A DNA stretch of 29,994 nt from a virus: positions 1-29,994 of IMG/VR virus record IMGVR_UViG_3300034107_001163; one strand, 5' to 3'. Position numbers and translations under genes: made by a program. Of the stretch, positions 3,224 to 25,904 are shown in pieces; the first letter of the stretch is position 1, and each line of letters begins with the position of its first letter. The notes under the pieces are model-generated. The model saw only the letters and a program-made list of their open reading frames with translations. It was not told where the DNA came from and searched no databases.

Positions 3224-3240
3224 ATAAAGTATATATAAAA
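3224..3240 (-). promoter_or_regulatory. Late-promoter-like motif for gp25
   Basis: On the minus strand the sequence reads TTTTATATATACTTTAT, matching the plus-strand motif before the capsid genes. It starts just after the terminator of the gp44 gene. Confidence 0.5.
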
Positions 3241-4284: not shown

Positions 4285-4494
4285 ATGGGTAAAGAATTAA
4301 CAACTGATATTTTCATAAAAAGATGCGTTGATAAACATGGTGATTTATATGACTATAGCCTAGTAGACTATAAAAAAATGAAAGAAAAGGTTGATATTAG
4401 ATGTGTGAAACATGATATTAAGTTTAAGCAGCTTGTAAGAATTCCATACTATGAATATAAGAACATTCGCAAAATATTAGAAAATGAGATATGA
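4285..4494 (+). CDS. DUF723-like homing endonuclease fragment
   Basis: 69 aa. The pattern FIKRCVDKHGDLYDYSLVDY followed by KVDIRCVKHDIKF matches the DUF723 repeat found in phage homing endonucleases and related DNA-binding proteins (HGxxYDYS...V.Y, I.C..H). Only one such domain is present and no nuclease domain, so it is a remnant or a stand-alone DNA-binding module. Its stop overlaps the gp15 start as ATGA, and it occupies the leader of the gp15 gene, so it may now serve mainly to couple translation. Confidence 0.65.
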   Translation: MGKELTTDIFIKRCVDKHGDLYDYSLVDYKKMKEKVDIRCVKHDIKFKQLVRIPYYEYKNIRKILENEI

Positions 4495-6851: not shown

Positions 6852-8588
6852 ATGATTATAGATTTATATATTAAGATAGCAACAAAGGGATGTAGAAAAT
6901 TAGACAATTTCAAAAAATTGGGTTATGATATAACTGGTGATTTTATTGAATTAAAAGTTTCTGATTTAAATACAGGATCAAGGCAATTGGTTAATATAGA
7001 ATGTGATTTCTGCAAAAAGATAGTTTCTGCAACTTATAAAGAATATTCTAGAAATATATCTATTGGTAATAAATATGCTTGCTCAAAACATTGTGGTTCG
7101 TTAAAAGCAAAAGATACTAATTTAATAAAATATGGTGTTGAACACCCAATGATGTTAGGTGAAACACAAGATAAAGTAAAAAATACAAATTTAGATAGAT
7201 ACGGTTTTGAGTTTTTGCAACAATCCAATATAATTAGAGAGAAATCAAAAGTTACTAATTTAATTAGATATGGTTTTGATAGTTATTCAAAGACTGATGA
7301 ATTTTTGATTAAATTTAAGAGCACTAATTTGGATAAATATGGTGTTGAGTTTCCTTCGCAATCAGAAATTATAAGAAATAAATCAAAGGAAACTTGGATA
7401 TCGAATTTAGGTGTTGATAATCCTAGTAAATCTATTGATGTTAGAAATAAAGTAAAAAATACCAATTTAGATAAATATGGTGTTGAAATTCCAATTAAAC
7501 TAGATGAATTTAAGCATAAAACGATAAAAACTAATTTAGATAGATATGGTGTTGATAATCCTATGAAGTCTTATTTTTTGAGAAAAGATAAATATTCAAT
7601 TACATCCGATAGTAGACTTTTAAAATATATAAATAATAGTAAATCTCTAATGAGATGCGAACTTGGACATGAATTTGAAATACATATAGATAATTACTAT
7701 AAGAGAATCTCATCTAATTTACCATTATGCACAATATGTTATCCAATTGGTAATACTAGATCAATAAAAGAATTAGAATTATATAAATTCATATCATCTA
7801 TTTATAATGGTGTGATAATGCAATCATATAGAGATGGTTTAGAAATTGATATTTATTTACCTGATTTAAAATTAGGATTTGAGTTTAATGGTCTTTATTG
7901 GCATTCTGAAGAATACAAGGAGCGAAATTACCATTCAAAAAAGACACAATATTTTAATGAAATTGGTATAAGAATAATACATATATGGGAGGATGATTGG
8001 GTATTTAATAATGATATAATAAAAAGTCAAATAAGAAATTGGATTTCAACAACATCTTTTAAAATATTTGCAAGAGTGTGTGAAATAAAAGAGGTTGGTT
8101 TAACAGAATGTAGAGAATTTTTAAATAAGAATCATATACAAGGATATACAAATTCGATAAAGAAGATAGGTTTATATTTATCCAATGAATTGGTAAGTTT
8201 GATGACATTTGATAATTTGGAAGGTAGAAAAAGAATGTTAGATAATGAATGGAATCTTAATAGATTTTGTAATAAATTAGATACCAACGTCGTTGGTGGC
8301 GCTTCTAGACTATTAAATTATTTTATTAAAAATAATAATCCAACTAGGATTATTAGTTATGCTGATAAAGATTGGAGTCAAGGAGATCTTTATTATAAGT
8401 TAGGATTCTCAAATATAAATGAAAGTAAAGAAGATTATAAGTATATTGTGAATGGTAAGCGAGTTCACAAATCTAGATATAGTAAGTCAAAATTAAAAAC
8501 TAATTTATCAGAGTCATTAGAAATGAAAAATAAAGGTTTATATAAGATATGGGATTGCGGTAAGATTAAATTTGAGATGTTATTTTAA
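6852..8588 (+). CDS. Homing endonuclease, Vsr-like (EDxHD type), with seven 23-aa repeats
   Basis: 578 aa. The N-terminus has a zinc-finger-like CDFC...CSKHC pattern (about 52-78). Residues 89-249 are seven tandem 23-residue repeats with the core TNLDKYGV.., a DNA-binding module of phage homing endonucleases. Residues about 295-380 are a Vsr-like PD-(D/E)xK nuclease: LEIDIYLPDLKLGFEFNGLYWHSE carries the acidic and His residues, followed by IIHIWEDDW. The C-terminal part (about 400-570; NKNHIQGY, IGLYLSNELVSLMTF, RFCNKLDTNVVGGASRLL, YADKDWSQGDLYYKLGF) is the domain usually attached to such nucleases. It looks intact and sits as an insertion before the gp55 gene. Confidence 0.85.
   Translation: MIIDLYIKIATKGCRKLDNFKKLGYDITGDFIELKVSDLNTGSRQLVNIECDFCKKIVSATYKEYSRNISIGNKYACSKHCGSLKAKDTNLIKYGVEHPMMLGETQDKVKNTNLDRYGFEFLQQSNIIREKSKVTNLIRYGFDSYSKTDEFLIKFKSTNLDKYGVEFPSQSEIIRNKSKETWISNLGVDNPSKSIDVRNKVKNTNLDKYGVEIPIKLDEFKHKTIKTNLDRYGVDNPMKSYFLRKDKYSITSDSRLLKYINNSKSLMRCELGHEFEIHIDNYYKRISSNLPLCTICYPIGNTRSIKELELYKFISSIYNGVIMQSYRDGLEIDIYLPDLKLGFEFNGLYWHSEEYKERNYHSKKTQYFNEIGIRIIHIWEDDWVFNNDIIKSQIRNWISTTSFKIFARVCEIKEVGLTECREFLNKNHIQGYTNSIKKIGLYLSNELVSLMTFDNLEGRKRMLDNEWNLNRFCNKLDTNVVGGASRLLNYFIKNNNPTRIISYADKDWSQGDLYYKLGFSNINESKEDYKYIVNGKRVHKSRYSKSKLKTNLSESLEMKNKGLYKIWDCGKIKFEMLF
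7116..7598 (+). repeat. Seven 69-bp coding repeats in the homing endonuclease
   Basis: Seven consecutive units of exactly 23 codons, each starting near TNL(D/I)(K/R)YG(V/F). The units have diverged (the fifth begins TWISNLGV), so they are old protein repeats rather than recent DNA duplication. The truncated gene at 18008-18397 carries two units of the same kind. Confidence 0.85.
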
Positions 8589-8643: not shown

Positions 8644-9042
8644 ATGATCGAGTCTTTAAAAAATAAATGCTTATTAATGTATCTTAATAATAGAGAATTA
8701 TATATTGAATTGGTGGTGAGTAAGGCACAAGGTAGACTTACAAGACCTGCACAAAAAATGCTAGAACTTCTAGCAAAAAAGACCATCAAAAAGATGAGAT
8801 ATTGGTCAAATGATGATAAAATGGATTGTTACCAAAGTGGTTTACTTTATGTCTTCCAAAACTGGTATAACTTCAATGAAGAAAAATCTGTAAATGCATT
8901 TGCTTATTTCACAGAGATCTTTAAAAGAGGAATTGCAAAGGGTTATAATGACCTTTATAAAAAGAAAGGAGATAATGAACACCAAATTAGACTCATCTCA
9001 ATTGAAGGAAGTAACGAAGGAATGGGACTCCATTCATTATGA
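8644..9042 (+). CDS. 55: Late-transcription sigma factor, gp55-like
   Basis: 132 aa (T4 gp55 is 185). Residues about 55-107 (KMDCYQSGLLYVFQNWYNF, then NAFAYFTEIFKRGIAKGYNDL) match the sigma region 2 pattern of T4 gp55 ([21 protein letters not shown], then [20 protein letters not shown]). gp55 recognises the late -10 box when bound to host RNA polymerase, with the sliding clamp as activator. That agrees with the shared TATATATA motifs before structural genes. The start is fixed by an upstream in-frame stop. The C-terminus is shorter than in T4, so the clamp-binding tail may differ or be supplied elsewhere. Confidence 0.7.
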   Translation: MIESLKNKCLLMYLNNRELYIELVVSKAQGRLTRPAQKMLELLAKKTIKKMRYWSNDDKMDCYQSGLLYVFQNWYNFNEEKSVNAFAYFTEIFKRGIAKGYNDLYKKKGDNEHQIRLISIEGSNEGMGLHSL

Positions 9043-9928: not shown

Positions 9929-10996
9929 TTAATTTTCTTCTAAGATTTCAACATCTTGTAGAATTGTTCTAACCATTCTATCAACAATTAAATATGGATC
10001 TCCATTAGATGCTGGTCTTCTATCTTCAATATAACCAATCGCATTCGGATCATTAATAGTTGAAGGAATTCTAATAGATTTAGTTCTATCGCCAATACCC
10101 CATCCAAAATCTTTAATAGATGATGTTTCATTTGAACCAGTTAATCTAGCATCGTTGTTTTCGCCATAAACCACAATATGTTCAGTGTGTGTTTTTTCTA
10201 ATTTTTTGCACATCTCAATAGCAATCTCTTTCTTATTGACTTTATCTTCTCTGATAGTTTTGGTTGAAAAGTTAACGTGCATTCCTGATCCATTCCAATC
10301 ATTACCTTTAATTGGTTTTGGATCTAATACAATTGTATATCCATATTCTTCACTTAATCTGTGTAAGAAATATCTAGATACCCATAATTGATCAGCACCT
10401 TCTTCTGCGGTAACTGTTCCAATTTGATATTCCCATTGACCTAACGCTACTTCTGCATTGGTTCCACCAATTGCTAACCCTGCTAAAATACAAATCTCTG
10501 TGTGTTCTTCTACGAACTCTCTACCCGATACATTGCTAGAACCAACAGCGCAATAGTAATCACCTTGTTCTCTTGGTTCACCTTCTGTTGGCCATCCTAA
10601 TGGTTTGTTTGTTTTGTTGTCATAGATAAAATATTCTTGTTCCCAGCCCCAATTGGTCTCATCATCATATTTATACAATGCTTCCATCATTTTTGTTCTG
10701 GTGTTTGTCGTGTGTGGTGTTCCATCTGTATTATAAACATCACACAAAACAATAATAGAGTTCTTTACAAATGGATTTAAAAAGTAATTTTTCGGCATTA
10801 ATAACAATTCTGATTTAGATGTTTCTGCTTGATAAGTAGAAGAGCCATCGTAATTCCAAACCGGTGCTGATTTAGTACCTGTTTTATATTGTCTTAATAA
10901 ATCTTCGGTTACCCACTTAGACTTTGTAATTTTTGTTTTACTTCTAATTTGTTGAGTTTTAGATCCATCTAACCAAATATATTCTAATTTTATCAT
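9929..10996 (-). CDS. glnII: Glutamine synthetase, type II (GSII/GlnII)
   Basis: 355 aa, full length for the eukaryote-like GSII class. It makes glutamine from glutamate, ammonia and ATP. Visible motifs in order: WNYDGSSTYQA (substrate loop), SELLLMP, NWGWEQEYFIYD (metal-binding Glu), GDYYCAVGSS, GLAIGGTNAEVALGQWEYQIG (metal-binding Glu), NGSGMHVNFST (ATP), GENNDARLTG, FGWGIGDRTKSIRIP and YIEDRRPASNGDPY. No key motif is missing, so it is probably active. GSII genes occur in Bacteroidota, so transfer from a host is likely. In a phage it would act as an auxiliary metabolic gene supplying glutamine for nucleotide and protein synthesis. It has its own leader with hairpins and a divergent neighbour. 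Confidence 0.95.
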   Translation of the reverse strand: MIKLEYIWLDGSKTQQIRSKTKITKSKWVTEDLLRQYKTGTKSAPVWNYDGSSTYQAETSKSELLLMPKNYFLNPFVKNSIIVLCDVYNTDGTPHTTNTRTKMMEALYKYDDETNWGWEQEYFIYDNKTNKPLGWPTEGEPREQGDYYCAVGSSNVSGREFVEEHTEICILAGLAIGGTNAEVALGQWEYQIGTVTAEEGADQLWVSRYFLHRLSEEYGYTIVLDPKPIKGNDWNGSGMHVNFSTKTIREDKVNKKEIAIEMCKKLEKTHTEHIVVYGENNDARLTGSNETSSIKDFGWGIGDRTKSIRIPSTINDPNAIGYIEDRRPASNGDPYLIVDRMVRTILQDVEILEEN

Positions 10997-12311: not shown

Positions 12312-12325
12312 TTTTATATATAAAG
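12312..12325. promoter_or_regulatory. Divergent late-promoter-like box
   Basis: TTTTATATATAAAG is almost self-complementary and lies between the divergent gp4-like gene and the gene at 12341, so it could be read in both directions. Confidence 0.4.
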
Positions 12326-16476: not shown

Positions 16477-18015
16477 TTATTTTATTTTTTTTACAGGATA
16501 TCCATCGTTACCAAGAGCGATTGTTAATAACCTCATTGTCAAAATGTCGGAATAGCGCCGAATTGGCGAGGTAAAATGCGTATAGTCCTGAAAATCAAGG
16601 CCATAATGTGCAATTTCCTCAGTAGAATAGTAAGCTTTTTTCATAGATCTAATAACCAATGTGCTTAATATATTTTCTTCAGGAGTATCCTTTATTTTCT
16701 TGATAAGTTTATTTAATTCATCCTTTGTTGTTTCCGGGTCACTTATTTCTAATTCGTGTCCGAAATTAAGAGCAATCCTTTTCAACTGAAGTAATTTTTC
16801 ATCATCTGGCTCTGGGTGTACTCGATTAACACAAGGTAGTTCTTTTGATTTTATGAATTTAGCAACTTCTTTATTAGCAAGTAGCATATATTCTTCAATT
16901 AGTTTATTTGCATCTTTTTGCTCTTTGAAATAAACACCAAGTGGTTTACCATTTTCATCAAGATTGAATTTAACTTCTTTACCACCCATCTCAATAGAAC
17001 CATCTTTGATTCTTTGCTTTCTCATAACTTTTGCAATTTTATCCAATTCTAATATAATTGAATCTGTATCACTACCATCACCACCGTTTTCAATAACTTC
17101 TTGTGCTTGTTCATACGAGTAATCTTTGTCTACATTTATAATTGTTCTACCAAACCATTTTTTTGTTACTTTTCCTTTATCATCAATTCTGAATGTTGCG
17201 GTGTAACATAGTCTATCAGGTCCTGATTTCAAACTACATATACCATTACTCAATCTTTTTGGTAACATAGGTACACATCTATCTACTAAATATACAGAAG
17301 TGCCTCTTTTGTATGCTTCTTTGTCTAATTCGGTTTTTGGAGTTATATAGTGTGTAACATCTGCTATATTTATAGATATAAATCTTTCACCATTTATAAA
17401 CTCTAAACTTAAAGTATCATCCGCATCTTTCGAATCAAATGGATCTATACCGATTGTTGTTACATTTCTAAGATCTTTTCTTTTATCAATTTCTTTTTGT
17501 GATATTATTTCAGATACTAGTTCTGATTCATTTATCACTTCTTGTGGAAAATCAACCGGTAGACCATACTCATACATAATTGCATTCATTTCGGTCTCAT
17601 TCTCACCAACGGTTCCTAGAACTTTTATTATTCTAGCGATTGGAGATTTCATTCCTGGTTCCCATCTTTCAAATTCAACTAAAACTTTTTGATTATTCTC
17701 AGCGATGTGTTTTCCTTTTATATAGAAATCTGCTTTTATTTTTGGATTATCAACAACTACAAATGTATGATCTTTTTTAACTTGTGTTGTTCCGACAAAT
17801 TCGGTCTTAAATCTTTCGATTACTTCGGTTACTTTTGCTTCTAGTTTTTTTTCACCTTGGAATAATACAATTTTAACTTTGTCTAAGTGCAACGCAGTAC
17901 TTGTTCTTTTTTTATGAACAAAGAATTCTTTATTTTCTATTCTAATTGCACCGTTACCTGATGTGGAGAATTCAATTTGTGTTTCGAAAATATCTCCCTC
18001 GTTGTATTTACTCAT
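16477..18015 (-). CDS. rnr: RNase R N-terminal part: cold-shock domains and RNB catalytic core
   Basis: 512 aa from ATG 18015. A start at 18051 is possible, but MSKYNEGDIF is the natural beginning of the first OB domain. Residues about 1-130 hold two cold-shock/OB folds. The RNB core starts near 185: GIDPFDSKDADD supplies the four metal-binding Asp (191, 197, 199, 200) with family spacing. CVPMLPKRLSNGICSL, NRVHPEPDDEKL and YTHFTSPIRRYSD follow. It degrades structured RNA 3' to 5'. The protein stops at VKKIK just after the SPIRRY helix; the rest is encoded by the next gene. It starts within the end of the endonuclease fragment (8-base overlap). Confidence 0.9.
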   Translation of the reverse strand: MSKYNEGDIFETQIEFSTSGNGAIRIENKEFFVHKKRTSTALHLDKVKIVLFQGEKKLEAKVTEVIERFKTEFVGTTQVKKDHTFVVVDNPKIKADFYIKGKHIAENNQKVLVEFERWEPGMKSPIARIIKVLGTVGENETEMNAIMYEYGLPVDFPQEVINESELVSEIISQKEIDKRKDLRNVTTIGIDPFDSKDADDTLSLEFINGERFISINIADVTHYITPKTELDKEAYKRGTSVYLVDRCVPMLPKRLSNGICSLKSGPDRLCYTATFRIDDKGKVTKKWFGRTIINVDKDYSYEQAQEVIENGGDGSDTDSIILELDKIAKVMRKQRIKDGSIEMGGKEVKFNLDENGKPLGVYFKEQKDANKLIEEYMLLANKEVAKFIKSKELPCVNRVHPEPDDEKLLQLKRIALNFGHELEISDPETTKDELNKLIKKIKDTPEENILSTLVIRSMKKAYYSTEEIAHYGLDFQDYTHFTSPIRRYSDILTMRLLTIALGNDGYPVKKIK

Positions 18016-18397
18016 TTTTTTTATTCTTTTTTGAAATATTGTCAACTCCATATTTATCTATTAGAGTTTGTTTCATTTTTGACAACACCTTTTTATTTTG
18101 TATTGGATAATCAACTCCGAAGTTTTTTCTTAGAGTTTCCTTTCTTTTGACTTCGGAGCATTTTCTACAATAGTAGTCACCCCAATTATTATCATATTTT
18201 AAGTAGTTTTTATAGATGACATCTTTCTCTATACCACATCCATCACATTTACATTTTATTTTATAATGTGAGCCTTTTGGTAAAAGTTCTACAGGAATTA
18301 CTATAATTTCACCAATTGTTGTGTCATAACCTAAATCATCATAGTACTGATAATTTGATTCATTGACTTTAATTTCTATTTCTCTTGTTAATATCAT
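18008..18397 (-). CDS. Truncated homing endonuclease (DNA-binding part only)
   Basis: 129 aa. A four-Cys zinc-finger pattern (CKCDGCG at about 57, CRKCSE at about 87) is followed by two of the repeats seen in the intact endonuclease at 6852 (ETLRKNFGVDYPIQNKKVLS, then QTLIDKYGVDNISKK). The protein stops there, with no nuclease domain. Its last 8 bases overlap the RNase R start. It is probably a decayed mobile gene that now forms the head of the RNase R operon; a regulatory role is possible but unsupported. A TTTTTTATATACAATAAG element on the minus strand (18413-18430) may be its promoter. Confidence 0.7.
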   Translation of the reverse strand: MILTREIEIKVNESNYQYYDDLGYDTTIGEIIVIPVELLPKGSHYKIKCKCDGCGIEKDVIYKNYLKYDNNWGDYYCRKCSEVKRKETLRKNFGVDYPIQNKKVLSKMKQTLIDKYGVDNISKKNKKNE

Positions 18398-18473: not shown

Positions 18474-18527
18474 TAAAAAATCCACCTTAGTAAAAATGCG
18501 GTTAAATAAGGTTTATATATACTCTAT
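18474..18527 (+). promoter_or_regulatory. Promoter region of protease-scaffold gene with inverted repeat
   Basis: TAAAAAATCCA, then the inverted repeat ACCTTA (18484-18489) / TAAGGT (18507-18512) with a 17-base centre, then TTTATATATACTCTAT (18512-18527). The same arrangement, with different stem bases, precedes the major capsid gene. Confidence 0.5.
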
Positions 18528-18547: not shown

Positions 18548-20716
18548 ATGAAACCAGTTTTAATAGTAGAAAATTCGACTAACTCTCTTATCAGAGAGAA
18601 TAACAGCACTGGTAAGAAGGATTATGTCTTAAATGGTACATTCACTGAATTTAATGTTAAAAACAGAAATGAGAGAATATACACCGCGGATAAATTCCTT
18701 CCTGCTCTACAGGAGATGAATGAAAGAATGAGCAACCTAGGTGTTGTTTATGGTGAGTTTGATCACCCAGATGTTTTTGATACATCACTTTCTCGCGCTT
18801 CTCACGTAATTACAAAAGCTAGTTACGTAAAAGAATCAAATTTAATTGAAGGTGAGATCAGATTATTAAGTACTTATTGGGGAAAAGAAGCGAAGGCGCT
18901 TGTCGATGACAACTGTCCTCTTTTTGTTTCATCAAGAGCTGCTGGTATAACTGAGTCTGACGGTACTGTTTCACTTAAAAAACTTTTCACTTATGACATC
19001 GTTGCGGATCCAGGATTTGCATCAGCGAAAATGAGTATAAAAGCACTTAATGAATCTTTAGGATTCTGTGAAAGCGGTCAAATTGAAAAAAATAACTTTA
19101 GGATATATGAATTATCCGATGAGTCAAAAACAGAAGAATTATTTAACATGAACAAAAATGAGTATGTTACTAAACAACAATTAACTGATTACTCACAGTA
19201 TTTAGTTAAGGAATTGGCATCTACAAAGAAAGAAGTTAAAAGTGCCATCACAAAAGGGAATATGAGCCCTAAAAAATTAGAGCAACTTTTAGAGTATTAT
19301 GATGAGTTGAATAAAACTAACTCACAAGTTGTTAAATATTTAGATTATTTGGCTGAGAAAGTTCAAATAATGGTAAATGAAAACAAGGCTCTTCAAGAAA
19401 CTACTAACAAATTAATCGAACATAACGATTATTTAGCAGAAAACTTAGAGAAAGCAGTTAACTATTCTGAGTACTTAGCAGAAAACTTAGAGAAAAATAT
19501 TGCTTATTCTGAATATGTTGCAGAAAATGTTGATAAAAACATTTCTTATACAGAGTATTTGGCTGAAAATTTAGACAAGAATATTTCTTATTCTGAGTAC
19601 ATCGCTGAAAACTTAGATAAAAACATTGGTTATTCTGAATATTTAGCTGAAAATTTAGACAAGAATATCGCTTATTCTGAGTACATCGCTGAAAGTGTTG
19701 ATAAAAACATCGCTTATTCTGAGTATATCGCTGAAAATTTAGACAAAAACATCGCATATGCTGAGTATATCGCTGAAAACGTTGATAACTCTATTGCTTA
19801 TTCTGAATATTTAGCTGAGCACGTTGAAGGTAATATCGCTTATTCTGAGTACATCGCTGAACATTTAGATGATAACATCGCTTACTCTGAATATATCGCC
19901 GAAAATTTAGATAAAACTATTTCTTATGCAGGTTTAATTACTGAAAAATTAAATGGTGGTAAATTAAATGAATCAGAAGGTGGATATCCATCATTGAATG
20001 CACATGGTTTTGAATCTCACGAAGAGAAAGAAGAGGAATATGCACACGAAGAAGAAGAAGCACACGAAGAAGAAGCACACGAAGGTAATGGTATTGCTGA
20101 GGTAGCACCAGAGCACGCTTATGCACACGAAGATAATGAAGACGAAGAAGAAGATGAAAATTGTGGACCAAATAACTATGAGGTAAACGGGAATTCTGAA
20201 TCAGAATTGTCAGAATCTATTGATAAATTAATCGAAGAAGCTAAAAAACGTAAAGTTTCTGAGACATCAGATTTGAATTTCTTAAAATTCTTATCTAAAT
20301 CACAAGTTGATAGCTATTATGCATTGACAAACGAAGAACAAGATACTGTTAAACTTCACATAAACGAAAGAAGTTACTTCACACAAAAAGAAGTATTATC
20401 ATTGATCTCCGAGTCTTTATCAACTAAAAACGAAACTCTTGAAGAAAGAGTAATCAGATTAATGCCTGAGAACACAAAGGCTATCTGGGATCAGTTAAAT
20501 GAATCAGGTAAAAAATCTATTTTATCACAAGCTAGATTATACCCTGAAGAAGTTTTAATGACTGAATCACAAGTTGAGCATTTCTGGAATACTAGAAATC
20601 TTAAAAAGAATGAATCTACAACTAAAAAGCTAGTTTCTCATGAAGCATTAATCCAAGAGGATAAATTGTCTGATAATGAAGTTTCTGCTATTATGGAAAG
20701 ATTCAAAAACATTTAA
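18548..20716 (+). CDS. 21-22: Prohead protease fused to scaffold protein (gp21-gp22)
   Basis: 722 aa. Residues 1-175 are a prohead serine protease: NGTFTEFNVKNRNERIY, GEFDHP with His73, LFVSSRA with Ser128/129, and YDIVADPGFASA with Asp150/154. Residues 201-722 form the scaffold. Two clear helical regions flank twelve 14-residue repeats (292-459, consensus YSEYIAENLDKNIA), followed by a Glu/His-rich acidic stretch (about 488-540) and a helical C-terminus. In T4 these are separate genes. An in-frame ATG (residue 201, base 19148) could yield a free scaffold, as in lambda-type protease/scaffold genes. LNE at 167-169 and the I/L/V-A-E of each repeat look like prohead protease sites, so self-cutting would release scaffold fragments during maturation. 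Confidence 0.85.
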   Translation: MKPVLIVENSTNSLIRENNSTGKKDYVLNGTFTEFNVKNRNERIYTADKFLPALQEMNERMSNLGVVYGEFDHPDVFDTSLSRASHVITKASYVKESNLIEGEIRLLSTYWGKEAKALVDDNCPLFVSSRAAGITESDGTVSLKKLFTYDIVADPGFASAKMSIKALNESLGFCESGQIEKNNFRIYELSDESKTEELFNMNKNEYVTKQQLTDYSQYLVKELASTKKEVKSAITKGNMSPKKLEQLLEYYDELNKTNSQVVKYLDYLAEKVQIMVNENKALQETTNKLIEHNDYLAENLEKAVNYSEYLAENLEKNIAYSEYVAENVDKNISYTEYLAENLDKNISYSEYIAENLDKNIGYSEYLAENLDKNIAYSEYIAESVDKNIAYSEYIAENLDKNIAYAEYIAENVDNSIAYSEYLAEHVEGNIAYSEYIAEHLDDNIAYSEYIAENLDKTISYAGLITEKLNGGKLNESEGGYPSLNAHGFESHEEKEEEYAHEEEEAHEEEAHEGNGIAEVAPEHAYAHEDNEDEEEDENCGPNNYEVNGNSESELSESIDKLIEEAKKRKVSETSDLNFLKFLSKSQVDSYYALTNEEQDTVKLHINERSYFTQKEVLSLISESLSTKNETLEERVIRLMPENTKAIWDQLNESGKKSILSQARLYPEEVLMTESQVEHFWNTRNLKKNESTTKKLVSHEALIQEDKLSDNEVSAIMERFKNI
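19421..19924 (+). repeat. Twelve 42-bp coding repeats in the scaffold
   Basis: Twelve head-to-tail units of 14 codons, consensus Y-S-E-Y-I-A-E-N-L-D-K-N-I-A. Fourteen residues are two heptads, so the unit fits a continuous coiled coil. Degenerate copies flank the array (one at residue 264, one at 460). Units differ in synonymous bases (ATCGCTTATTCTGAG and variants), so the protein sequence is being maintained. Confidence 0.95.
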
Positions 20717-20720
20717 TCTA

Positions 20721-20772
20721 TAAAAAATCCAATCTTGTGAAAACGAGTAAAATAAAGATTATATATAGAATA
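20721..20772 (+). promoter_or_regulatory. Promoter region of major capsid gene with inverted repeat
   Basis: TAAAAAATCCA, then AATCTT (20731-20736) / AAGATT (20755-20760) with an 18-base centre, then TTATATATAGAATA. The layout copies that before the protease-scaffold gene. Confidence 0.5.
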
Positions 20773-20799: not shown

Positions 20800-22512
20800 A
20801 TGTCACACATTAGAATAGACAACGCGAAAGCAACTAAGAAATGGGCTCCAGTTTTAGAAAACATGGGAGTAACAGGTGATAGAGTTGAATGGATGGCGGA
20901 ATACGCTGAATTTCACTCAATCAACGAAAACGCATACGTAAATGCTTCAAACGTAGGAGGTATGGGTGCAGTATTGAATCCAATAATTGGTGGTCAAGCA
21001 GGACAAACTTTAAACGCACTTGGTGCTGTAAATGGTTCAGGAGACGTAGGTCAAAACTTGTTACCAGTTGCAATGAAAATTGCTGCTCAAACAATCGGTT
21101 TAGATTTAGTAGCTGTTAAACCAACACCTGGTCCGAAAATCGATTTACTTTATATTGATTTCCAATATGATGATTCTAGATCAACTAACTCACAAGATGA
21201 GAGACCACAAGTTTTCAAATTAAAAGCTGATGGTTCAACTAATCAAACAGCTATTGCTAATCACATTAATGCTAATTTAGGTTCTGCTAACTTAAACTCT
21301 GGTGGTATCGTATCAGGTAGAGTATTTGTTGCTAACTTCGCAGGTAATAATGCATTAGCAAACACTGCAGGTGATATTGCTGCGCTTGAAGCAGGATCTA
21401 AAGCAGGTGTTTTAGAATTCTTAGGATTCTCAAGAGTAGATGGTTACCCAATGTTTAGAGCATACAGACAAGCAAACACTGCACACACTGGTGTTGGTGG
21501 TGGAGCTAATTCTCTTTGGTCTTTTGACGCAACAAGAAACTCTTTCAACCCAACACAATCTATGGCAGACCAAATTAACTATATTGGTACTGTTGCAGTA
21601 ACTGGAAATCCTGAGATACAATTAGTATCTGCATTAGAGGATCACATCCCAGGTTTCTCTGCTAACTGGACTGCTAATTTAGCAACTGGTGATTATCCAA
21701 TGGGTCGTCAAGCTGATGATGATTCTTATGCTGGAGTTATCGGACCAAAAATCTCTTCTAAAACTATCGCAGTTGGTACTATTGAAGTATCTTCAGCTTT
21801 AAGAAGAACAGAAATCGAAGATATCAAAGCAAACACAGGTATGGATATCGTTCAAAAAATGGAATCTATCCTTGTTAACGAATTGTCTCAAACAATTTCT
21901 AAACAAATCGTTGCTAAAATCTTCGAAATGGGTTCTTTAAATAGAACTAATGCTCCTGCTTTCGCTGGTACTCCTACTATCACTGGTCACACTATCTTTG
22001 ACTTAGATACTGCTTATGCTGGTACTGGTGTTGTTGGTGGTGAAACTACTCACGCTGTACAAAGAAAATTGATCACGAAAATTGCTCACGCTTCTAACTA
22101 CATCGCAACTGAGGGTCGTGTAGGACCTGCTCAATACCTTATCACAAATGGAGGTTTAGCAGCTGCTCTTCAAGACATCGCTGGTTACACAATTAACCCA
22201 GTTAGATCTAAATTAAACGGACAAGGTCAATTATACCCTGTTGGAACAATCGGAGATATCGCTATCTATGTTGATCCTTACATGAGATATAATGATAACA
22301 GAATCGTTTTAGGAAGAAAAAATAACCCAGATCAACCAGGTATCATTTTCGTACCTTACTTGATGGCACAATCTATCTCAGTTATTTCTGAAGCGACTTT
22401 CGCACCAAGAATGTTACTAAGATCTAGATATGCTGTTGCAGAAGTTGGATGGTTCCCACAAAAACAATTTATGACTATCCAAGTTAAAGATGCTTCTCAA
22501 TTATTGAACTAA
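20800..22512 (+). CDS. 23: Major capsid protein, gp23-like
   Basis: 570 aa (T4 gp23 is 521). It starts with a helical region containing KKWAPVLENMG, comparable to T4 NKWKPLLEGEG. SINE at 40-43 followed by Asn is the likely maturation site, comparable to FLTE-A in T4, so the mature chain would begin at residue 44. The rest has HK97-fold features: a Gly/Ala-rich entry, TIEVSSALRRTEIEDIKA, YLITNGGLAAALQDI and IAIYVDPYMRYNDNR. Codon choice is the most biased of the window, and an inverted-repeat promoter and strong terminator flank the gene, as expected for the most abundant virion protein. Confidence 0.93.
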   Translation: MSHIRIDNAKATKKWAPVLENMGVTGDRVEWMAEYAEFHSINENAYVNASNVGGMGAVLNPIIGGQAGQTLNALGAVNGSGDVGQNLLPVAMKIAAQTIGLDLVAVKPTPGPKIDLLYIDFQYDDSRSTNSQDERPQVFKLKADGSTNQTAIANHINANLGSANLNSGGIVSGRVFVANFAGNNALANTAGDIAALEAGSKAGVLEFLGFSRVDGYPMFRAYRQANTAHTGVGGGANSLWSFDATRNSFNPTQSMADQINYIGTVAVTGNPEIQLVSALEDHIPGFSANWTANLATGDYPMGRQADDDSYAGVIGPKISSKTIAVGTIEVSSALRRTEIEDIKANTGMDIVQKMESILVNELSQTISKQIVAKIFEMGSLNRTNAPAFAGTPTITGHTIFDLDTAYAGTGVVGGETTHAVQRKLITKIAHASNYIATEGRVGPAQYLITNGGLAAALQDIAGYTINPVRSKLNGQGQLYPVGTIGDIAIYVDPYMRYNDNRIVLGRKNNPDQPGIIFVPYLMAQSISVISEATFAPRMLLRSRYAVAEVGWFPQKQFMTIQVKDASQLLN

Positions 22513-25351: not shown

Positions 25352-25904
25352 TATAATCTTTTATTATTTTCTCTACATTATCAAATGTGTAATCTAGATC
25401 ATCTAAATTTAGTTTATATATCACATATATTTGATTATTGTTTATATTATTTATGTTGTATGTATAATTGATATATTTTTCCGGTATTTGTTCAACCATA
25501 TTTAAATAAATACTTTGTCTCTTTGTTAGTAATTTATCATCTTTTTTAGTTTTCTTCATTTCATCCTCACTAAGAGCACAAAAAACTATAGCATTTGGTG
25601 ATTTATTTTCAATTAAATATATGATACCTCTTTTTGAGGTAGATAAAACTACATATTTATCAGTATCTATACCCGTTGCATTTGGCGATAGTTCTATTTT
25701 ATTATTAACTCCTTTTTTTGCTAAATAGAATTTATATGACCAAGCATCACCTGTTAATTTAAAATCTAGTTGATATGTATTTTCACCTACTTTGAACAAA
25801 CCGATTAATCTATCTGTGTTATCTATCCATTTTATATCTACATTTGATGTGTATAAAGACTCCGATAAATCTTTTAAAAATTTACTATATTTTAATATAC
25901 TCAT
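25335..25904 (-). CDS. Tagged hypothetical protein
   Basis: 189 aa, not recognised. The N-terminus MSILKYSKFLKDLSESLY resembles that of the protein at 22594 and the wider tag family. On the minus strand the start codon directly follows TTTTAATATATAAAAT, a late motif, leaving no leader. The body is alpha/beta, Lys- and Asn-rich. It is convergent with the NADAR gene and shares 17 coding bases with it. Confidence 0.72.
   Translation of the reverse strand: MSILKYSKFLKDLSESLYTSNVDIKWIDNTDRLIGLFKVGENTYQLDFKLTGDAWSYKFYLAKKGVNNKIELSPNATGIDTDKYVVLSTSKRGIIYLIENKSPNAIVFCALSEDEMKKTKKDDKLLTKRQSIYLNMVEQIPEKYINYTYNINNINNNQIYVIYKLNLDDLDYTFDNVEKIIKDYITDFD

Follow-up and report, generated by a model that had tools for sequence, protein, structure and literature searches.

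The window analyzed here, a stretch of 29,994 bases that is a fragment of a huge phage genome, encodes what is probably the inner-core scaffold of a Mahaphage joined to its own gp21-type prohead protease. The glutamates of an array of 14-residue units would serve as protease sites along a rod that would be cut after assembly. To our knowledge, nothing is known of head building for genomes of 600-735 kb, and the protein provides a concrete, testable scaffold design for megaphage heads.

A protease and a scaffold in one reading frame

The closest records to the window are LR745206, LR756502, LR756501 and LR756504, 634-735 kb in length, which agrees with the largest complete genomes in the Mahaphage clade; Bacteroidetes are the predicted hosts of this clade (PMC7162821). 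The relatives of the window phage are Mahaphages with genomes of 597-735 kb. Other genes in the window encode a T4-type portal, gp23, a gp25-like wedge protein, a clamp loader and a late sigma factor. The protease-scaffold reading frame directly precedes the gp23 gene and is uninterrupted, as it is in relatives. Within it, the protease comes first, and after it a rod predicted to be helical, a linker rich in acidic residues and a domain at the C-terminus:

18513..18521, + strand: late-promoter-like TTATATATA, 35 nt upstream of the protease-scaffold gene
18548..20716, + strand: fusion of a gp21-type prohead protease and a scaffold, 722 aa in all (E 1.3e-30 to PHROG 207, head maturation protease)
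18548..19054, + strand: protease domain, residues 1-169 (5jbl profile, Foldseek, catalytic residues)
19172..19954, + strand: predicted helical rod, helices 209-236, 241-374 and 382-469 (AlphaFold, low pLDDT of about 50-60)
19421..19924, + strand: twelve 14-residue units in tandem, [ILV]AE occupying positions 5-7 of each (Tandem Repeats Finder, translation, relatives)
19982..20180, + strand: acidic low-complexity linker, E/H/D-rich, differing between phages
20198..20713, + strand: C-terminal helical domain (a similar stretch, judged by eye, ends the Lak protein)
20759..20767, + strand: late-promoter-like TTATATATA, 41 nt upstream of the capsid gene
20800..22512, + strand: major capsid protein gp23 (PF07068, E 2.4e-30), the predicted substrate of the protease

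The earlier note on this DNA had proposed a scaffold fused to a protease of the T4 type, and this holds: a single frame matching PHROG 207 encodes both, and residues 1-169 are a T4 gp21-type prohead protease by profile, fold and catalytic residues. PDB 5jbl is the best profile match of the domain (E 9.6e-20) and accounts for all of the top three Foldseek matches (E 4e-9, TM 0.65-0.69), the next match having an E value of 0.08. His73 and Ser128/129 are invariant and align with His85 and Ser140/141 of T4 gp21. The Pfam S77 profile scored below its cut-off on the fusion protein (16.6 versus 27 bits). The strict recognition form of the T4 protease is L/I-X-E (PMC9026906), and cutting after the glutamate of this motif by the protease of the fusion is predicted from motif conservation.

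Residues 209-469 are modelled by AlphaFold as an almost continuous helix, at low confidence; the full-length model (pTM 0.29) was left out of the fold search. The rod has the traits of gp22, being dense in L/I-x-E and, by this low-confidence prediction, helical. It matched none of the known gp22 families (PHROG 237 and others), and the description "gp22-like" therefore refers to gene position and composition. Homology between the rod and 121Q-type scaffolds was considered and rejected (hhalign E 0.03, probability 0.8%).

Several features of the window lie outside this gene. Copies of TTATATATA occur at 12314, 13707, 18513 and 20759 on the + strand and at 3238 and 12323 on the - strand, 27-41 nt upstream of late genes, and probably act as late promoters recognised by a gp55-type sigma factor, whose gene is at 8644-9042. 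At 6852-8588, 4285-4494 and 18008-18397 there are a homing endonuclease gene and what are probably pieces of genes of this type, one of them immediately upstream of the protease-scaffold gene. A phage-encoded glutamine synthetase with both Pfam domains is located at 9929-10996 on the - strand. Short N-terminal tags are present on the reading frames at 832, 1498 and 1975 (+) and at 25904 and 29231 (-). Examples are MKHIRTFE↓S, MKHLKLFE↓N and MRHITKFIKFLTE↓S (arrows mark candidate or known cleavage points); these resemble T4 capsid-targeting propeptides, which are cut after glutamate, and may mark proteins packaged inside the head.

The array and its glutamate

The array comprises exactly twelve units, and [ILV]-A-E is found in all twelve (YSEYIAENLDKNIA), both as the earlier note had described; the coordinates given there are exact. 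The units are in frame (residues 292-459), with zero indels. The first unit is HNDYLAENLEKAVN, and the remaining eleven fit Y-x-E-Y-[ILV]-A-E. Eleven units have the strict T4 form I/LxE and one has VAE, and a degenerate 13th unit, YAGLITEKLNGGKL, follows the array and carries ITE. By Tandem Repeats Finder, the 42-bp repeat spans 19463-19927, with 11.1 copies, 75% matches and 0 indels. About 100 related phage contigs carry the same array, its 14-residue register exactly preserved. Differences among the window units fall mainly at third codon positions (220, 81 and 448 at positions 1, 2 and 3), so selection acts on the protein; together with the presence of the array in relatives, this argues against chance. 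A PSCyt2 match on the array fell below cut-off and was put down to composition. A literature search for tandem repeats in phage scaffolds returned nothing relevant.

The arrays of 101 distinct relatives contain 9-12 units each, with a single case of 15; 74 have 11, a number found in most relatives regardless of their divergence. The first and last units are recognisable across phages, and changes in number occur in the middle of the array. It has been suggested, in the earlier note, that the array is a ruler, the number of units setting the size of the core and hence of the head. The narrow range of unit numbers would fit such a role, as would the presence of 9 units in the smallest near-complete relative (597 kb) and of 11-12 in the largest (735 kb). 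However, the correlation of array length with genome size is not significant (rho 0.67, p 0.22, n=5 near-complete genomes of related phages), the fusion protein of Lak phages (541 kb) lacks the array, and a 462-kb relative carries about 11 degenerate units. A ruler is thus very unlikely, although these data do not refute it; the core of the earlier interpretation, a scaffold bearing protease sites, stands, and its extension to head size is not supported.

Unit position 7 is glutamate in all 1,114 in-register units of the 101 relatives. Within the Mahaphage clade alone, this invariance proves little, given the strong conservation of the entire unit. Tyr-4 is invariant to the same degree. It may be that the array is no more than a coiled-coil rod whose glutamates are structural, forming salt bridges or surface charge. 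The 14-residue period would then reflect two heptads and the side-by-side packing of tyrosine, isoleucine and leucine residues, and the rod would be cut at a few sites beyond the array (LNE169 and KLNE475 are examples). The equal invariance of Tyr-4 is consistent with this, as are the period itself (14 = 4 x 3.5 residues), the nearly continuous predicted helix, a register shift of heptad size in the array of one relative (L130), and the partial persistence of hydrophobic positions 9 and 13 in a distant clade. In the favoured reading, too, the array would be a rod-shaped alpha helix made of double heptads (14 = 2 x 7), as the low-confidence prediction has it, but one carrying protease recognition sites at regular intervals.

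The distant clade, of 462 kb and 33-35% identity, also bears on the glutamate. The 14-residue register is retained there, Ala-6 is down to about 23% and Lys-11 to 24%. In units picked on positions 1, 4 and 5 only, and so without selecting for Glu-7, this residue is retained in 39 of 53 distinct units, compared to 8.7 expected when polar residues were shuffled within units (maximum of 5,000 shuffles, 20; the permutation p is optimistic because units share descent). P3 and P1 of the motif are thus retained and P2 is free; the motif is selectively kept as the unit diverges. In the window, all units of the scaffold carry a protease-type [ILV]xE, and the scaffold adjoins gp23; the earlier interpretation is partly supported by these findings. 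For a coiled coil with structural glutamates, it is unexpected that Glu-7 is the best retained polar position when Lys-11, with which it could pair at i+4, has disappeared, and that Glu-3, likewise on the polar face, drops to 14 of 53.

Fully conserved [LIVM]xE motifs beyond the array include three candidate sites:

18560..18571, + strand: candidate N-terminal activation site LIVE8↓N, kept in 101/101 relatives
19043..19054, + strand: candidate site ALNE169↓S, which would separate protease from scaffold, kept in 101/101
19961..19972, + strand: candidate site KLNE475↓S, just 3' of the array, kept in 101/101

T4 gp21 has LIE-9 at the place corresponding to LIVE8 (PMC9026906, PMC9958956), and its activation is thought to proceed by loss of nine residues (PMC9958956). 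The counterpart of ALNE169↓S in the distant clade is VNE↓A. In the window capsid protein, the candidate processing site is HSINE↓NAYV, a position placed by homology with FLTE↓A of T4 gp23. The junction in nearly every relative is [ILM]xE↓N, rarely ↓S, with a variable P2 (INE, MNE, LNE, LYE, IHE), and capsid junction and array share their P3/P1/P1' pattern. Neither this match nor the free P2 between a kept P3 and P1 in the distant clade is predicted if each unit instead docks another head protein, for instance capsid hexamers or core proteins, and owes its conservation to that binding. Docking would account for the strict conservation of Y-x-x-Y-[ILV]-A-E and for the position-specific variants EHVEGN and EHLDDN, shared across phages near the C-terminal end, but on balance seems quite unlikely.

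A leucine or isoleucine two residues before glutamate is the commonest spacing in T4 gp22 (16 versus 5.7 shuffled) and in the 121Q scaffold (24 versus 6.9), and also in GAP32, S-CRM01 and both megaphage clades; the enrichment was not found in mature T4 gp23. In the array alone, other L/I-Glu offsets are equally common owing to the repeat, and the spacing argument therefore draws on the non-array parts and on other phages. Enrichment of L/I-x-E in gp22-type scaffolds that lack a repeat also weighs against the purely structural coiled coil, which we regard as unlikely. Since T4 gp22 and other scaffolds share this spacing, the array resembles a known T4 strategy made periodic. Dense L/I-x-E is a signature common to gp22-type scaffolds, and could flag scaffold genes missed by homology.

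The capsid junction, the conserved sites, the distant clade and the spacing agree, and a role of [ILV]AE as predicted protease sites is well supported by these four lines. Some points count against this reading. At P3, about 12% of units carry V, which the strict L/I rule of T4 does not cover. About a quarter of distant-clade units lack Glu-7, so that a cut in every unit is unnecessary for function there. Sites within a stable helix may also be cut poorly.

Proposed maturation and a possible scaffold-only product

We infer a course of maturation, including the cutting itself, its order and completeness, the oligomeric state and what becomes of the peptides. Once the shell has formed, the protease would activate by cutting LIVE8↓N, release itself from the scaffold through a cut at LNE169↓S and process the capsid protein at INE↓N. 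It would also cleave many, if not all, of the [ILV]AE↓N, ↓H or ↓S sites along the rod. The core would then collapse into short peptides and leave room for DNA, much as when T4 gp21 acts on gp22. A breakdown of the present scaffold to small peptides is supported by analogy with T4, where gp21 degrades gp22 (PMC9958956). With protease sites spaced like the rungs of a ladder in a natural protein, the scaffold looks designed to disintegrate into small equal peptides after head building. The design predicts limit peptides such as NLDKNIAYSEYIAE (monoisotopic 1641.789), for which metaproteomes already available could be searched.

Two further features lie between the protease and scaffold parts:

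19094..19135, + strand: element conserved at synonymous sites, AACTTTAGGATATATGA-nnTR-TCCGAYGAGTCAAAA
19148..19150, + strand: in-frame Met201, conserved and 3' of the element, a candidate internal start of a protease-less scaffold

Synonymous conservation at codons 181-204 is 0.53 and 0.29, versus about 0.05 around them, and is the highest in the gene ahead of its C-terminal third. Exact copies of the core of the element occur in 97 contig stretches, and each of the 81 inspected core matches is in the protease-scaffold gene or at a contig end; some groups (L005, L048, L059) lack it. Rfam gave no match at the element. A gp55-type late promoter was considered and set aside: the late motif is [TA]ATATATA[GC], and TATACGA is present in some phages, hence no clean match. 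The C-terminal third of the gene (19955-20710) also has raised synonymous conservation, about 0.25-0.4.

Met201 is kept in 98% of Mahaphages, and a methionine is present at the protease-rod boundary in 8 of 8 inspected distant phages, though the surrounding sequence has changed. T4 proheads contain about 580 gp22 to 55 gp21 (PMC9958956). A 1:1 fusion could not yield such a ratio, and a scaffold-only product from an internal signal would therefore make sense. The element and Met201 together suggest a separate protease-less scaffold product, although the element could have a role other than as a scaffold start signal. A stronger version, in which one gene yields protease and excess scaffold via an internal start or promoter at Met201, every unit is cleaved, and the rod core is dismantled into nearly identical 14-mers, is a tentative and rather doubtful possibility. 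If true, it would be a modular, self-erasing scaffold in the largest phage heads known, and the gene would be laid out much as in herpesvirus UL26/UL26.5.

Comparison with known systems

Protease and scaffold are fused in Mahaphages, the 462-kb clade and Lak, and are encoded by separate neighbouring genes in T4, 121Q, GAP32 and four further jumbo phages. The T4 gp21/gp22 system is similar in protease fold, catalytic residues and location beside gp23, in a scaffold with L/I-x-E about every 15-17 residues, and in a conserved site near the protease N-terminus. It differs in having two genes and a gp22 without a tandem repeat, and the scaffolds have no detected sequence homology. The 350-kb jumbo phages of the 121Q/GAP32 type (gp602, GAP32_249) share the gene order and an L/I-x-E per 15-16 residues, but their scaffold is a separate gene without an array and belongs to PHROG 10922. 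In the Lak megaphage (Mahaphage clade, 541 kb), the protease is fused to an acidic stretch and apparently the same C-terminal domain; however, there is no array, and L/I-x-E occurs once per 43 residues.

Herpesvirus UL26/UL26.5 and lambda C/Nu3 each provide a protease-scaffold fusion plus the scaffold alone. The Mahaphage gene resembles them in its fusion, and its conserved internal methionine may be placed for a scaffold-only product of this kind. Their scaffolds are unrelated to that of the Mahaphages, in which the internal product is predicted. In herpesviruses, the protease and scaffold genes overlap (PMC8539031). The array design of the Mahaphages is a new form of the T4 scaffold-maturation strategy.
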